In this document: one piece after another, positions 19,793 to 26,076 of the stretch
How the letters are laid out: the number at the start of each line of letters is the position of its first letter
Numbering within the stretch: position 1 is the first letter of the stretch
Virus record (IMG/VR): IMGVR_UViG_3300020421_000049
Span: 1 to 41,918 of that record
Strand: one strand, 5' to 3'
Source of the DNA: a virus
DNA: 41,918 nucleotides
Made by a program: the position numbers and the translations under genes
Notes under the pieces: generated by a model
Told to the model about the DNA's origin: nothing
The model's database searches: none
The model's input: only the letters and a program-made list of their open reading frames with translations

Positions 19793-22700
19793 TCAAGCTC
19801 CCAGTGTTAATAATCTTTGTCTAGCCATATATGCTAGTAGTCCAGCGTCAGACATATCAGAACCTCTCCTTGATGACTGTGATTGACCACCACCGCCACT
19901 GCCGCTAATGTTGGATGATTGATTGACTGGATTATTTACAATAGCAACTTTTGGTCCTGCTGCTGCCATTGCTGTATTAGCAGATCCTTCTAATAGAGCA
20001 GTTGGTGCAGCGTTTGGCGGTGCTTGATATGAACTTCCCCTTCCTTGAGCACCAAATGCGAATGAGAAGAAATCTTCAGGGTTTCCTGCTGGTGCTGCTG
20101 ATGTATTACTCATCAACTGTACACCATTATTAGAAGAAGGAACAGCACCAGGTGCTAAAGCATTTGCACCAGGAGTGTTACCAGATCCTTGCATACCATG
20201 TGCAACAAATGCTCTAGTTCCAGCAATTGTAGCAGTGTTTCCGAATCCTGTAGAGGATTCTTTATAATTATGAACACCAAGAGGTAATCTTAATCCAGGT
20301 TTTCCAGCAATATCTATACCACCAAAAGATCCACCACCATCTCTACCAGCATGAGCTATTTGTTCTTGTTCAATGTATTTCATTAATGTTGCATCATCAG
20401 GTGGATTGTTAGGATCAATGTCAATCATTGCATTTGTAAACGAGAAACGTTCTCCTTTACCAATAAGAGCCTTTGCGATCTTAAATGATGCACGTCTTAC
20501 TTCTGCTTTACCTTCTGGTTTATTCCACAACTCTGTTTCAGGTCCAATATGGAAGTGAGGTCCACGAGAAGCACCAGTATCACCTTGAATGAATGTTCCA
20601 GCACCCTCTAGCATAGCAGTTGGTTGCATTGGTGTTTGTGGTTGAACCGATGCAGCTGCAGCAGCCTGTGCATTACTAGCACTTGGTGTGTAACTCATCT
20701 GCTGGAAACCTGGGTTCAATTGATTATTTTGATTATTAGCAGGTGCTTGTGGTGCTCTCTGCGCTTGCTGTGCCTGCTGTAAGATTTCACCAGTTCCAGC
20801 ACCTTCTCTTCTAACACCTGATAAACCACGATCTCCCGCAATTCTTGCAGCATTACTATCTCCCATAAAGATAGCACCAGCATACTTAGAGTTAAGTTGA
20901 CTTGCAAATTGTGGTGTAAGATGAGCAGGATCTCTAGTTTCGTAAACTCCTTCTTCTATAATTGCACCTTCATTTGAAGCAGCAGATTTAATTGCACTAT
21001 AAGCTCTACCATATTCTTTTTGATTAGGTGGAACTACAACAACTCTATATCCCTTCGCTTTGAGATTTCTGATGGCATCCATCATATCTCTTCCTGCTCT
21101 AACAGGATCATTAGCAGTATTTGTTCCACCAGCAAGAACAACAGTTTGACCTGCTCCTCCTCCTGCCATAGGACTTAATGTAGGTGAAACGTTTTGCAGC
21201 ATGCCTACAGGCAATTGTGATAGGTCTCTATCATCATGGAAGTAATTACCACCAGTTCCACGATACATGTCACCAGATCTCATATTTTGTAGATCTGTTT
21301 GCCCTTTGAAATATGCTCTCCCTTTGACATCGTTTCTTGCTGCTGTTGACATCGCACCACCAGATTGGAAGTCACTTAAAATTGCAGATGCTTCAGATGC
21401 TTTATTTTTATTGAATATTCTATCAAGACCAGCAAACCCTTCTGTAGCAGCAATTTGCCTTAATTTTGCTTTTCTTTCTTCTGGAGTATTACCCAACATA
21501 GGAGCTATATGTCCATATGCTGCATTTGCATTAGGATCTGCTCCAGGACCATAAATTGCAGCAGAGAATGGTGTAAATTGACCCTCTGCCATTGCTTGGT
21601 TTCCAACATTAGTGCCATACCCAGAATGATTCTGTGTCGCTCTATTCAACATTACCTGCATAGCATCAGCAGCATTTTGACCACTACCACCTTCTAATGT
21701 TGACAAATATGCCGCTAACATGTTATCGCTATTACCACCACCTACAGGACCACCAGGACCGCCAGGACCACCAGGAGAAGTGCCCTGTTGTTGACCTTGT
21801 GTATTACCACCACGATTACCAAAGATATCTTTGATACCAGGAATTTTGTCTAAGAGGTCTCTAACACTATTACCAAACGATTTACCACCTTTCAAACCAA
21901 GTGGATCACCAATGCCTCTTTTTTCCATTTCTGCACCAATTGCTGATGCAATACCCTTATACTCTTTTTCTTTACCACCAAATATATTCTGTAAACCACC
22001 ACCAAAAGCATCAGCAATACCTTTCAATGGATTGAGAGGTAAAATACTCATAACTTCTGGATTTCCAGGTTCATTGAAGATGCCATTCAAACCAGGCATA
22101 CTAAATGGCATGTTTGTCATACCAGGAACAATTGTTCCACCTGCTTTGAATTTTGCTGGTGGAAGTAATTTTTGTCCTCCTCCACCTGTTCCACCCATCA
22201 TATCACCAGCCATCAACGCACCGTCAATACCTAGAGATACAGCAGTTCCAACACCAGGAACTGTAGATGCAGCACCAGATGCTAGTTCGCCAACAGCACC
22301 TATGATATCACCTTTAAGTAATCGTTCAATACCAAATGCAGCACCTGCAAGTAATCCAACACCAGGAATTTTCTTTGCTACTGCCTTTCCTGCTCCTTTT
22401 GCTACTGCTTTACCTGCTCCTTTTGCTACTGCTTTACCACCTGTTTTTGCTAATCCTCCACCAACTTCTTTAGAAATTGTTTTACCAATCTTTCCAATAG
22501 CACCACCTTTTTTAGATAGTGCAGTAATTGGTTTAACACCTTTAGTTGGTCTAGCAGGTCTACCTTTTTTAAATGCAGCGATTCTTTCTTGTTTTGTTAG
22601 ATAGTTACCTTTAGCATCAGTACCCATCTGAATGGCATTATTAAATAAATCGCCAATTCCTGAGGACTGTGGTGATACGCCACCACTTGGTCCTGGCATA

Positions 22701-23302
22701 CGTACAGATGGTGTGGGTCCTCCAGTTGTTCCAGGTAATCTAGGACCACCAGGTGGTAAAGCTTTTCTACCTCCTCCTCGTGTAATACCTGAACCAGTTC
22801 TTGGTACAATAGACCCTTTACCAGGTGGTAATTGTAATTGTCTAACTGTTACCCTTTTAATAGGTTCTTGTCTAGAAGGTAATTTCTTCTGTTCTTCCCT
22901 ACCTCTTAATCTTTTTACGTCCTTTTCGCCACCATCAGATTCTACATTTACGGATGCAGAAGCAAAAGTAGAAGTTACACCAAACCTAAGAGTTTCATCT
23001 TGTGGTTTTTCGTATGTCTCCTCAATACCAATCTCTACAGTTGCTTTATTACCAAAAAGTTCAAATTCACCAGCGATCTTACCATCAACAATATCTGCTT
23101 CAGAAAAGTTTTCGGATATTACAAATCTTCTCTTTGTACCATCGGGAAACTTAGCGTTCTCAGCAGTAATCGTAAAGGTGACTACTTCACCTCTTTTAAC
23201 ACTTTGTTTATCAGCCTCAACTTTCCACCCAAGACGGTCGCGCTTCTTCCTCTTGGGGTCTCCTAGTTTTAAACCTGAAATTGCGTAAGATCCTGATGCC
23301 AT
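19793..23302 (-). CDS. multidomain baseplate hub enzyme: SleB-like, SGNH-like and M23-like segments
   Basis: A 1169-aa protein. Residues ~25-125 form a Calx-beta/Ig-like domain (VKRGEVVTFTITAEN). A Gly/Ala-rich hydrophobic region (about 270-375) resembles membrane-active tape or hub segments. Residues ~522-670 match SleB-type cell-wall hydrolases (QNAADAMQVMLNRA, MAEGQFTPFS). Residues ~716-815 carry SGNH motifs (VVLAGGTN, DPAHLT, MGDSNAARIAG) and ~911-1030 carry M23 motifs (RGPHFHIG, GGIDIAG, AFVAHGM), both in permuted order. It likely digests peptidoglycan during DNA injection in place of the missing gp5 lysozyme. The ATG overlaps the stop of the 52-aa gene by 1 nt. Confidence 0.7.
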   Translation of the reverse strand: MASGSYAISGLKLGDPKRKKRDRLGWKVEADKQSVKRGEVVTFTITAENAKFPDGTKRRFVISENFSEADIVDGKIAGEFELFGNKATVEIGIEETYEKPQDETLRFGVTSTFASASVNVESDGGEKDVKRLRGREEQKKLPSRQEPIKRVTVRQLQLPPGKGSIVPRTGSGITRGGGRKALPPGGPRLPGTTGGPTPSVRMPGPSGGVSPQSSGIGDLFNNAIQMGTDAKGNYLTKQERIAAFKKGRPARPTKGVKPITALSKKGGAIGKIGKTISKEVGGGLAKTGGKAVAKGAGKAVAKGAGKAVAKKIPGVGLLAGAAFGIERLLKGDIIGAVGELASGAASTVPGVGTAVSLGIDGALMAGDMMGGTGGGGQKLLPPAKFKAGGTIVPGMTNMPFSMPGLNGIFNEPGNPEVMSILPLNPLKGIADAFGGGLQNIFGGKEKEYKGIASAIGAEMEKRGIGDPLGLKGGKSFGNSVRDLLDKIPGIKDIFGNRGGNTQGQQQGTSPGGPGGPGGPVGGGNSDNMLAAYLSTLEGGSGQNAADAMQVMLNRATQNHSGYGTNVGNQAMAEGQFTPFSAAIYGPGADPNANAAYGHIAPMLGNTPEERKAKLRQIAATEGFAGLDRIFNKNKASEASAILSDFQSGGAMSTAARNDVKGRAYFKGQTDLQNMRSGDMYRGTGGNYFHDDRDLSQLPVGMLQNVSPTLSPMAGGGAGQTVVLAGGTNTANDPVRAGRDMMDAIRNLKAKGYRVVVVPPNQKEYGRAYSAIKSAASNEGAIIEEGVYETRDPAHLTPQFASQLNSKYAGAIFMGDSNAARIAGDRGLSGVRREGAGTGEILQQAQQAQRAPQAPANNQNNQLNPGFQQMSYTPSASNAQAAAAASVQPQTPMQPTAMLEGAGTFIQGDTGASRGPHFHIGPETELWNKPEGKAEVRRASFKIAKALIGKGERFSFTNAMIDIDPNNPPDDATLMKYIEQEQIAHAGRDGGGSFGGIDIAGKPGLRLPLGVHNYKESSTGFGNTATIAGTRAFVAHGMQGSGNTPGANALAPGAVPSSNNGVQLMSNTSAAPAGNPEDFFSFAFGAQGRGSSYQAPPNAAPTALLEGSANTAMAAAGPKVAIVNNPVNQSSNISGSGGGGQSQSSRRGSDMSDAGLLAYMARQRLLTLGA

Positions 23303-23460
23303 TAGCTTTCTTGTGCTTTTTTGAGTTCTTCAAGATATTGTTGCAATAACGCAGTGTAAACATCTCGTTCCCACGGCATTAAATTTTCAATTTCCGTCAA
23401 ACTATATTTATGGTACTGGATCAAAGCAAAATTAGTTTTATAATAACCCTCTAGGGTCAT
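23302..23460 (-). CDS. small tail-assembly partner in the -1 frame of gp26 (52 aa)
   Basis: MTLEGYYKTNFALIQYHKYS, then LTEIENLMPWERDVYTALLQ and an acidic-basic helix. The motif YSLxEIExMxPWER is familiar from small cyanophage proteins next to gp26. The ATG is 11 nt after the gp26 stop and the TAA overlaps the next ATG by 1 nt. It lies exactly in the -1 frame of gp26 and that frame is open back to a TTTTTTC heptamer in the gp26 C-terminus, so it may also be made as a gp26 fusion, as in gpG/gpGT-type tail chaperones. Confidence 0.7.
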   Translation of the reverse strand: MTLEGYYKTNFALIQYHKYSLTEIENLMPWERDVYTALLQQYLEELKKAQES

Positions 23461-23471
23461 ATGGAAGAGGC

Positions 23472-24185
23472 TTACCCGAAAAAATTAGATAATCCCTCAA
23501 TCGTGTACTCACCAACAACACCAGTTTTTGGATTTTCTGCCTCAAAGGTATGAGTCAATTTTGGTGAAGTTGCGAAGAATTCAGAGAATTTCTCAAATTG
23601 TTCTCTGGTCATATTCTCAACAAAATCCTTAAATTCTTGCTTTGAAGTAGTTGAGTTATCAAATACTTCGTCTTCAGTAAAAATTTGATCAATAGAATCT
23701 GCAATAAAGTCAACTACTTCATCTTCATCAAATTTCTTCAAAAGAGAGACATTAACAAAGGTATCAAGACCAGGATATTTCATAATACACCCGATTTTGT
23801 CATCGAGCATGATTTTCTTGTCATGACCCTCAGGGAACTCGACTTCTACATTTTCAAGGTCTACTGTTACGGTTGTAGTTGTCTCGCCATCATCTTTACA
23901 GGTAACAACGAATTCTACTGTGCTTCCAACAGAGACAGATCTGATTTTCAAGTAAATATACTCCAAATCAAAAGATGCTAGTTTTTCAACTTTAACACCT
24001 CTAGTTACGATGCAATTTTGGAGAAGATCGACAATTGCGTCTTTAATTGCCTCTTCGTTACCATCTTCTGATGCCAGTAAAAGCACCTTTTCTTCTTTTA
24101 CAGTGAATGGTCTAATTTTAATACTTTTGCCTGTAGAAGGCACTTTGATAGTAGAAATAGGATAACCAATCGTCGGTAGTGACAT
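23472..24185 (-). CDS. gp26: gp26-like baseplate hub assembly protein
   Basis: The 237-aa protein has the T4 gp26 family pattern: MSLPTIGYPISTIKVPSTGK, SIKIRPFTVKEEKVLLLASE and FDLEYIYLKIRSVSVGSTVE, with an acidic middle (EDEVFDNSTT) and C-terminal helix EQFEKFSEFFATSPKL. In T4 this protein takes part in central hub assembly and is not abundant in the virion. A CTAAATA late promoter lies 22 nt upstream. Its last codons contain a slippery heptamer that puts the following 52-aa gene in the -1 frame. Confidence 0.82.
   Translation of the reverse strand: MSLPTIGYPISTIKVPSTGKSIKIRPFTVKEEKVLLLASEDGNEEAIKDAIVDLLQNCIVTRGVKVEKLASFDLEYIYLKIRSVSVGSTVEFVVTCKDDGETTTTVTVDLENVEVEFPEGHDKKIMLDDKIGCIMKYPGLDTFVNVSLLKKFDEDEVVDFIADSIDQIFTEDEVFDNSTTSKQEFKDFVENMTREQFEKFSEFFATSPKLTHTFEAENPKTGVVGEYTIEGLSNFFG
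23478..23484 (-). promoter_or_regulatory. candidate -1 ribosomal frameshift heptamer at the gp26 3' end
   Basis: The minus strand reads T TTT TTC in the gp26 frame (codons AAT-TTT-TTC-GGG-TAA), a canonical X XXY YYZ slippery site one codon before the stop. After a -1 slip the frame reads CGG GTA AGC CTC TTC CAT ATG and continues into the 52-aa gene with no stop. About 7 nt downstream CCTCT can pair with AGAGG (13-nt loop) as a stimulator. Confidence 0.6.
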
Positions 24186-24206
24186 AATATGCTCGTTCAG
24201 TATTAT

Positions 24207-24213
24207 TATTTAG
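24207..24213 (-). promoter_or_regulatory. late promoter of gp26 (CTAAATA)
   Basis: CTAAATA on the minus strand, 22 nt before the gp26 ATG. It is likely the late promoter for the hub operon running leftward from gp26. Confidence 0.6.
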
Positions 24214-24215
24214 TG

Positions 24216-24284
24216 CGACTTTTTTAGTCAAAATTTAGCGGGAATTTTTTTCCCAGTTTCATGGAATCGAAAAATCGAATTTCC
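24216..24284. repeat. left copy of a ~68-bp imperfect direct repeat
   Basis: Shares collinear blocks with 28038-28104 on the same strand: CGACTTTT, a GCGG block, AATTTTTTTC, TTTCA and ATCGAATTTC. It fills the gap between gp26 and the tube-family gene. It also contains short inverted repeats (GGGAA/TTCCC and GACT/AGTC). Confidence 0.5.
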
Positions 24285-24982
24285 TATTGTACACCAATAT
24301 AGCGTCCGTTCTCATCGTAAAGGGTATTAACCGACTTGAATGACTGTTGTGTGATATCATTCGTCACAACATAGTGTCTTTCATATTGGAACTGTGCTGT
24401 GAACTTAACCACTTGAGTATTACCATACGAAAGAGGAACAGCATCAACCTCTGCAGGCCAGCAGTTTTCCATTACATAAGTGATTGGTGACCTTTCTTGT
24501 GTATCTTCTGGACCCATTTCAGTTTTACTAATCCTTATGTTACATCTGTATTCATCAGGATATGCTAATCGAACTGCACGTTTTGGATTCAACCTATCAG
24601 TAGTTCTCATACTTTGGAGATCACTTCCTGGTTTTTGTGACTTTTGATGCTCTCCAAAAATATAATCATTCCATGATTGAATGAATTTCAAGGGAAGTAG
24701 ATCAGCAGTTAACATCCAACCTAACTGAAATGTACTGAAGACACGACTGGTTGCATAGTTCACCTGACTCTCACCTAGGTATCTTCCAGTGATTCCACCA
24801 GTTCCAGTGCTAATGTTAGGTAGTTGTGCTTCATCACAGAAGATTTTAATGTACTCTTCTTGATAATATTCACCCAACGCTGCTTTAAGTTCATCCGTCA
24901 GATAAAATTGCACATCAAAGTTATTGCTTGAAGCAATACCACCTCTTTTACCTATCTGCTTTAAAAACTTATCTATAGACAC
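24284..24982 (-). CDS. tail-tube family protein (gp19/gp54-like)
   Basis: A 232-aa protein that starts SIDKFLKQIGKRGGIASSNN and has the strand order of tube proteins: YIKIFCDEAQLPNISTGTGG, RVFSTFQLGWMLTADLLPLK with IQSWNDYIF, RCNIRISKTEMG, and a final DAVPLSYGNTQVVKFTAQFQ with ERHYVV. T4 tube (gp19) and tube-initiator (gp54) proteins share this fold and the closing 'xxLSYGxxxxxxFxxxFxYxxY' strand. Position beside gp48 favours a baseplate tube initiator or hub role. It is transcribed divergently from gp4. Confidence 0.6.
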   Translation of the reverse strand: MSIDKFLKQIGKRGGIASSNNFDVQFYLTDELKAALGEYYQEEYIKIFCDEAQLPNISTGTGGITGRYLGESQVNYATSRVFSTFQLGWMLTADLLPLKFIQSWNDYIFGEHQKSQKPGSDLQSMRTTDRLNPKRAVRLAYPDEYRCNIRISKTEMGPEDTQERSPITYVMENCWPAEVDAVPLSYGNTQVVKFTAQFQYERHYVVTNDITQQSFKSVNTLYDENGRYIGVQ

Positions 24983-24983
24983 A

Positions 24984-24990
24984 CTAAATA
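24984..24990 (+). promoter_or_regulatory. late promoter for the gp4-gp53 operon
   Basis: CTAAATA on the plus strand, 23 nt upstream of the gp4 ATG, in a compact divergent intergenic region. Confidence 0.6.
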
Positions 24991-25008
24991 CCTATGTTGG
25001 TCTCTTTA

Positions 25009-25016
25009 TATTTATG
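25009..25016 (-). promoter_or_regulatory. late promoter for the tube-family gene
   Basis: CATAAATA on the minus strand, 26 nt upstream of the ATG at 24982. It overlaps the gp4 start codon, so the two late promoters face outward across 30 bp. Confidence 0.55.
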
Positions 25017-25445
25017 GCGTACTCTGGATTTTACAAACCAGTGAATCCTATGAAGTACCGTGGCAACCCGACAAACATTGTTTATAGGTCGCTATGGGAA
25101 CGAAAGTTCATGGTGTTCTGTGACAATAACCCTAATATATTACAGTGGGGAAGTGAAGAGATTATTATACCATACAGAGCACCTGATGGTAAAGTGAGGA
25201 GATACTTTCCAGATTTCTACATAAAAGTTCGTGAAAAAGATGGAAAGGTCACGAAGTATATCATTGAAGTAAAACCCAAAAAACAAACACAACCACCTAA
25301 TGCAAAAAATAAACGAACTGCCTCCTATCGTAATGCCGCTTTAACATACGCAAAAAACCAAACTAAATGGTCTGCTGCTCGTGATTATTGTGAAGATAGG
25401 CAGATGAACTTCTTGATATTAACCGAGGATCATTTAGGAGTATGA
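25014..25445 (+). CDS. gp4: gp4-like head completion protein
   Basis: Starts MAYSGFYKPVNPMKYRGNPT and contains IVYRSLWERKFMVFCDNNPN, LQWGSEEIIIPYRAPDGKVR and YFPDFYIKV...YIIEVKPKKQT, the conserved pattern of T4 gp4 (gp50/gp65) head completion proteins, which have an endonuclease-like fold (WGSEE, PDFY, EVKP as the PD-(D/E)XK-like core). Length 143 aa matches the family. The frame opens 30 codons earlier, but the start at 25014 matches family members and follows the late promoter. It seals filled heads before tail joining. Confidence 0.88.
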   Translation: MAYSGFYKPVNPMKYRGNPTNIVYRSLWERKFMVFCDNNPNILQWGSEEIIIPYRAPDGKVRRYFPDFYIKVREKDGKVTKYIIEVKPKKQTQPPNAKNKRTASYRNAALTYAKNQTKWSAARDYCEDRQMNFLILTEDHLGV

Positions 25446-25449
25446 AACA

Positions 25450-26076
25450 ATGGCACAAGGATTTGGTTCTACAGCAATTAGAACCGCAAACACAAAAACA
25501 GCAGGATACGAAACTCTATTTGATAAAGTAAAAACTCTGAGTTCAGGTCAAAAGAAATCTATCAAATGGTATAGATCAGCAGTTAAGTCAGAATCTGGTA
25601 AGTACAAAAAGAATTTCAATAACAAAGGAAGTACAGAAGTATCCCAAACTCAAAACGAATTACGTAACACTACATTAGAAAGACATATCTATATGTTTGA
25701 GTACCAGGCAAAAATGAGATGGTTGCCTTACTACGACAAGTTTCCACTAGTATACGTTCTTAAATCAAAAGGTAGTGAGTTCACAGGAATAAATTTACAC
25801 TATCTGTCACCAAAAAAGAGAATTATTGCCACCAAAAAACTGTTGCAAGGAAGAATCGACGTACCTAAGGCATGCTTTCATAAATACCTACATAACCATG
25901 TCCAAGAGGGAGTATACATTGATCTTGCTCAAGCAGAGTGGGATAGTGCTATTCTTTTACCAACAGAGGAATTTGTGAAAAGTATCAATGGTATGAACTT
26001 TCCAATAGACAAGAAACTTGTCTGGAAAGATACCGATGAAGCTTTCTATGATAAAATTACGGGTCAAAGTAAATAA
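25450..26076 (+). CDS. virion protein of unknown role, possibly gp2-like DNA end protector
   Basis: A 208-aa protein with YMFEYQAKMRWLPYYDKFPL, GINLHYLSPKKRI, FHKYLHNHVQEGVYIDLAQA and EWDSAILLPTEEF. The LPYYDxFPL...GxNLHYL pattern is one I associate with proteins placed near gp4 in T4-like phages and sometimes labelled DNA end protector (gp2); I cannot confirm the equivalence. GGAG precedes the ATG, and the TAA overlaps the gp48 ATG by 1 nt, so it belongs to the late gp4-gp53 operon. Confidence 0.45.
   Translation: MAQGFGSTAIRTANTKTAGYETLFDKVKTLSSGQKKSIKWYRSAVKSESGKYKKNFNNKGSTEVSQTQNELRNTTLERHIYMFEYQAKMRWLPYYDKFPLVYVLKSKGSEFTGINLHYLSPKKRIIATKKLLQGRIDVPKACFHKYLHNHVQEGVYIDLAQAEWDSAILLPTEEFVKSINGMNFPIDKKLVWKDTDEAFYDKITGQSK

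Follow-up and report, generated by a model that had tools for sequence, protein, structure and literature searches.

Our analysis implies that the gp26-family gene and the 52-aa ORF that follows it are almost certainly one gene, which would be expressed through a programmed -1 ribosomal frameshift, and that its short and long products very probably form a tail assembly chaperone pair of the gpG/gpGT type. Conserved among the relatives are the slippery site, its phase, the -1 frame behind it, the spacing to the downstream domain, a bias towards a Shine-Dalgarno (SD)-like element and the gene order, and both products are homologous to T4 gp26 and gp51. The window, that is the whole stretch of DNA that was analysed, is an IMG/VR virus record of 41918 bases, and since it carries psbA- and psbD-like genes, the virus is a cyanophage. 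On its minus strand a tail tube-type gene, the gp26-family gene, the 52-aa ORF and a 1169-aa ORF follow one another, and the features of this locus are:

24284..24982, minus strand: tail tube-type protein, directly upstream of gp26 (PF23849 Phage_TTP_2, E=3e-57; phrog_45, tail tube)
23472..24185, minus strand: gp26-family gene, 237 aa, short form, putative tail assembly chaperone N-domain (PF12322, E=7e-63; phrog_150)
23494..23498, minus strand: SD-like GAGGG, its end 9 nt ahead of the heptamer, probable stimulator (anti-SD energy, GAG bias)
23478..23484, minus strand: slippery heptamer T TTT TTC (in-phase conservation)
23472..23474, minus strand: TAA that ends gp26 in the 0 frame, a single sense codon past the heptamer (sequence)
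23448..23470, minus strand: stem CCTCT/AGAGG, 7 nt past the heptamer, possible stimulator (folding energy)
23302..23484, minus strand: -1 frame segment of 60 codons, FFRVSLFHMTLEGYYKTNFALIQYHKYSLTEIENLMPWERDVYTALLQQYLEELKKAQES, putative long-form C-domain (phrog_634, spacing)
23302..23460, minus strand: 52-aa ORF, part of the -1 frame segment, ATG at 23460 (-1 frame)
19793..23302, minus strand: 1169-aa protein in the tape-measure slot (ORF; its start codon overlaps the -1 frame stop)

The identity of the two products follows the T4 proteins closely. The window gp26 matches PF12322 (T4_baseplate) with 212.6 bits at a cut-off of 24.5, and the -1 frame peptide matches two families: phrog_634 (E=1.5e-26), labelled "baseplate hub assembly catalyst", and phrog_150, to which gp26 belongs, here at the C-terminal end. 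This double match arises because T4 gp51 (249 aa) joins PF12322 to the same C-domain, while T4 gp26 (208 aa) consists of PF12322 alone; in T4, too, gp26 corresponds to the short form, and gp51 to the short form with the C-domain added. The AlphaFold model of the window gp26 (pLDDT 84) has as its two best PDB matches the HK97 tail assembly chaperone 2ob9, with probabilities of 0.84 and 0.80 and weak E-values of 0.28 and 0.56, the match to HK97 gp13 with E 0.28 covering 71 columns; a profile sequence search of gp26 against the PDB gave nothing relevant. The chaperone reading is based on this homology to T4 gp26 and gp51 and on the position of the pair between the tail tube gene (PF23849) and the tape-measure slot. 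One could argue that the fusion is instead a structural protein of the baseplate hub, as records call gp26 "baseplate hub" and T4 gp26 was assigned to the hub on genetic grounds (PMC3004832). However, in that review both T4 proteins, gp26 and gp51, count as hub assembly chaperones, and gp51 is described as required and absent from the particle (PMC3004832), the gene order and the pairing of a short with a long form are those of tail assembly chaperones, and Vladimirov et al. (2022), to judge by its title and the papers citing it, assigns them as such. Thus it is not likely, that the fusion is a hub component. The earlier note had likened a fusion of gp26 with the 52-aa ORF to gpG/gpGT and tied it to the T4 hub assembly pathway: the frameshift device stands, with heptamer and phase kept, and the hub fusion is better read as a long-form chaperone.

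The minus strand of the window reads ATT GAG GGA TTA TCT AAT TTT TTC GGG TAA GCC TCT TCC ATA TGA CCC TAG AGG G across the end of gp26. The gene closes, as had been noticed earlier, with AAT TTT TTC GGG TAA, which contains T TTT TTC at 23484-23478; the 52-aa gene indeed lies in the -1 frame relative to gp26, and that frame is open from the heptamer to the end of the gene, over 180 nt. An equally long open frame occurs in about 1.3% of shuffled downstream sequences. In the window genes examined, 16 of 7937 codon positions have an in-phase heptamer of the form X XXY YYZ, and the one in gp26 is alone in lying less than 45 nt from a stop. These chance figures, coming from the window alone, are suggestive, not decisive.

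The relatives carry the argument. We gathered 75 distinct loci with the gp26 protein and from named phages, and compared their 3' ends as the earlier note had proposed: despite strong divergence the relatives retain heptamer and -1 phase, with T TTT TTN in 74 of 75. Among these 74 loci, 54 have TTTTTTC, 18 TTTTTTT, one TTTTTTA and one TTTTTTG, the last being Rhizobium phage RL2RES (T TTT TTG); the sole exception of the 75, locus L063, has the imperfect heptamer G TTT TTT A. The heptamer falls on a conserved Phe-Phe pair, therefore part of its conservation is protein constraint. This share was addressed with the Phe-Phe pairs at other places in these genes, which take the form T TTT TTN in 3 of 74 cases (Fisher P=1e-37 against 74/75). 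A second set of 61 distinct loci was gathered with the 60-residue -1 frame peptide; it overlaps in part with the first, as some contigs are in both. All 61 of these loci carry TTTTTTC, in each the 0-frame stop follows the first base of the heptamer at exactly 10 nt, and none of them has an in-frame fusion.

The -1 frame codes for protein under selection from the heptamer onward. An example of what follows the two Phe codons is RVSLFHMTLEGYYKTNFALIQYHKYSLTEIENLMPWERDVYTALL. Nearly all of the 74 loci have a conserved YY block 13 codons past the heptamer, regardless of whether the 0-frame stop lies 7, 10, 13 or 31 nt from the start of the heptamer. Where close relatives differ in codons ahead of this block, changes that are synonymous in the -1 frame outnumber the others, by 280 to 90 in the larger group and by 51 to 34 in the window's own group. 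The window does have an ATG 12 nt past the gp26 stop, and GenBank records annotate gp51 separately, so one could take the 52-aa ORF for an independent gp51 whose own ATG is used through translational coupling with the gp26 stop. However, this ATG lacks an SD and is not conserved, an ATG before the conserved block is absent in 47 of the 74 relatives, 34 of 74 lack ATG, GTG and TTG there altogether, and a start is preceded by an SD in only 1. Moreover, the annotated gp51 starts vary between phages, no gp51 gene is annotated in Sf-CH1b, Aeh1, S13 and G2, where the -1 frame is intact, and conservation reaches upstream of the 52-aa ATG as far as the heptamer. An independent gp51 is thus a very improbable account of the window gene. 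The fixed spacing, the missing starts and the synonymous excess in the -1 frame argue that an own start is not the general way of gp51 expression, and the window's ATG looks incidental. As this ATG is unconserved and without an SD, the functional -1 segment is taken to be the 60 codons from TTT TTT onward.

Two elements beside the heptamer may stimulate the shift. The mean anti-SD energy has a sharp minimum of about -6 kcal/mol for 8-mers ending 7-8 nt ahead of the heptamer, and is -0.1 elsewhere in the gene. The SD-like motif codes for a conserved Glu-Gly, and for this reason it was compared with a null of synonymous codons, weighted by the codon usage of the locus in question: the best SD-like sites average -6.32 against -5.23 +/- 0.17 for the null, with 0 of 300 as low, and GAG encodes the conserved Glu in 32 of 49 loci, compared with a share of 28% elsewhere (P=1e-7). 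The SD-like GAGGG is stronger than the amino acids and codon usage explain, and it is a probable frameshift stimulator. Across the relatives a second, weaker anti-SD peak lies about 30-33 nt upstream of the heptamer (about 23514-23525 on the minus strand of the window) with a mean of about -3.5 kcal/mol; it may reflect conserved Gly codons.

The downstream element is a plausible stimulator, though not a proven one. The CCTCT/AGAGG stem described earlier is present, 23470-23466 pairing with 23452-23448, and starts 7 nt after the heptamer; the minimum free energy of the region is -10.1 in the window. Over the 74 loci the downstream region folds more stably than shuffled sequence, with a mean z of -1.4, against -0.2 and -0.5 in control stretches. 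Close relatives share a related stem of 9 bp with 94% pairing, in which no compensatory changes were found, and S-PM2 has a different, long stem in the same place. The additional pairing of GGG after the heptamer with CCC in the loop, which had been suggested as a pseudoknot, is not kept: in close relatives GGG is replaced by GGA or GCA and CCC has disappeared from the loop, and since both partners change, the pseudoknot was rejected. A search of window positions 22000-26000 against Rfam gave no matches.

Slippage of the polymerase on the T run, adding a base to the mRNA and so fusing the frames, is the least credible explanation, for although some relatives (L036-L049) have runs of 7-8 T, most have exactly six T and then C (61/61 in the set gathered with the C-domain), six T are short for polymerase slippage and, followed by C, well suited to tandem Phe-tRNA slippage, and the SD-like bias upstream is a signal to which ribosomes would respond, and not the polymerase.

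We infer slippage in the cell, its efficiency and the action of the two stimulators from the sequences, and under programmed frameshifting the steps would be as follows. Most ribosomes would stop at the TAA and release the 237-aa short form. A minority would be paused by the downstream stem, while the SD-like GAGGG would pair with 16S rRNA and pull the ribosome back; both Phe-tRNAs would then slip one base back, from U UUU UUC to UUU UUU, and the slipped ribosomes would make a 294-aa long form ending in the conserved gp51-type domain. In the window phage the predicted tryptic junction peptide of this product is TGVVGEYTIEGLSNFFR, which only the long form would yield. By analogy with lambda, the two domains could divide the labour, the N-domain coating the tape measure and the C-domain recruiting tube subunits.

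Among known systems, lambda gpG/gpGT and the G-T frameshift of long-tailed phages come close: there, too, a short protein and a long form, made by a -1 frameshift near the 3' end, are encoded (PMC5009743), the genes lie between tail tube and tape measure, and the phase is conserved across diverged sequences. The window gene differs from it in its family (PF12322), in its heptamer U UUU UUC and in the SD-like element, here 9 nt upstream. The tail assembly chaperone (TAC) genes of Vandenendeviridae and Andersonviridae share the poly-T -1 signal and the annotation of the locus as two genes; they belong to another phage group and their slip motif is GTTTTT (PMC12846349).

The same site and -1 domain were found in Kyanoviridae, Sinorhizobium phage phiM12, Caulobacter phage Cr30, Rhizobium phage RL2RES, a Desulfovibrio phage and Stenotrophomonas phage Moby, as well as in KVP40-type vibriophages, Aeromonas phage G2, Cronobacter phage S13, Aeh1 and vB_VmeM-32. 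The groups with this arrangement include Emdodecavirus, Pootjesviridae, Menderavirus and KVP40-, Aeh1- and S13-type Straboviridae, and the putative frameshift spans the T4 superfamily, some Straboviridae included. In contrast to the window, T4, 44RR and ZZ1 carry gp26 and gp51 as two separate divergent genes that need no frameshift, and a two-gene arrangement is found in T4, Biquartavirus, Twarogvirinae and Pseudotevenvirus. We lean towards the view that a frameshifting gene with an SD-like stimulator was ancestral in the T4 superfamily, and that its duplication into a short gene, 26, and a long in-frame one, 51, went along with loss of the frameshift in the Tevenvirinae-type phages. If this is true, a ratio set by translation was replaced by two separately regulated genes. 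In a tree of short and long forms the T4-type long forms group on one side; the tree is unrooted and its long branches meet, therefore it does not date the duplication. Within the window record, of only 41918 bases, a second PF12322 copy was not found. Enterobacter phage EC-F2 (L101:2501-3794) has a long (247 aa) and a short (185 aa) PF12322 gene overlapping in tandem on one strand, again with no need of a frameshift, and this pair may be an intermediate in the origin of the duplication.

For long-tailed phages a review from 2016 described the G-T frameshift as conserved "except T4" (PMC5009743), and the earlier note likewise knew of no established case in T4-like phages. That statement is outdated, as the paper on phage Adele refers to Vladimirov et al. 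(2022) for -1 signals of the poly-T type in the TAC-N genes of T4-like phages (PMC12846349), and the PRFect paper refers to the same work for some T4-like phages having the short and the long form as separate genes (PMC10885494). According to such citing papers, the TAC genes of T4-like phages have been identified. Vladimirov, Gautam and Davidson (2022, pmid 34826709) apparently made the same assignment for T4-like phages; judged through its title and these citations, the chaperone identity was already published in 2022, and the frameshift in some T4-like phages was probably already known. The selection on the SD-like element, the fixed spacing free of starts and the resolution of the 2010 anomalies described below were not found in the literature searched, though Vladimirov et al. 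may include the SD-like bias, the fixed spacing and the cases of Aeh1, KVP40, S13, Cr30 and RL2RES; for cyanophage ribosome profiling the same literature gave nothing useful.

The apparent T4 exception to the frameshift rule of tail chaperones (PMC5009743) would hereby be removed: the frameshift long said to be absent from T4 seems to be kept in nearly all T4 relatives that have the gene in its frameshifting form. The C-domain of gp51, a protein described in 2010 as essential but with no known function (PMC3004832), would gain a specific expression mechanism and a role. The comparison of 26 T4-like genomes by Sullivan et al. (2010) recorded that gp51 of cyanophages and vibriophages is without its first ~200 residues, and that Aeh1 is without gp51 (PMC3037559). 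The former would be so because gp26 supplies these residues, the latter because the -1 frame of Aeh1 was never annotated. The C-domain is matched by 575 phage records, none of the annotated records inspected joins the two frames, and many cyanophage records probably carry a wrong gene model at the gp26/gp51 locus. Unannotated gaps after gp26 with an intact -1 domain lie in Aeh1 (L183:3286-3456), Aeromonas G2 (L089:3205-3373) and Cronobacter S13 (L090:3226-3390).

The 1169-aa protein of the window is presumed from its position to be the tape measure. The S-PM2 and Cr30 counterparts match tape-measure families; the window protein itself gave no tape-measure family match and no Pfam match. Its residues 25-141 match the T4 gp5-type tail lysozyme family, and a Lys/Gly-rich hydrophobic stretch near residues 255-369 matches viral peptidase/endolysin families. 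The S-PM2 protein in the same slot (L081:4886-8386, record 151356-154856) also has a phage tail lysozyme domain, and its residues 66-218 form an ADP-ribosyltransferase-like stretch (PF01129, E=1.3e-5).
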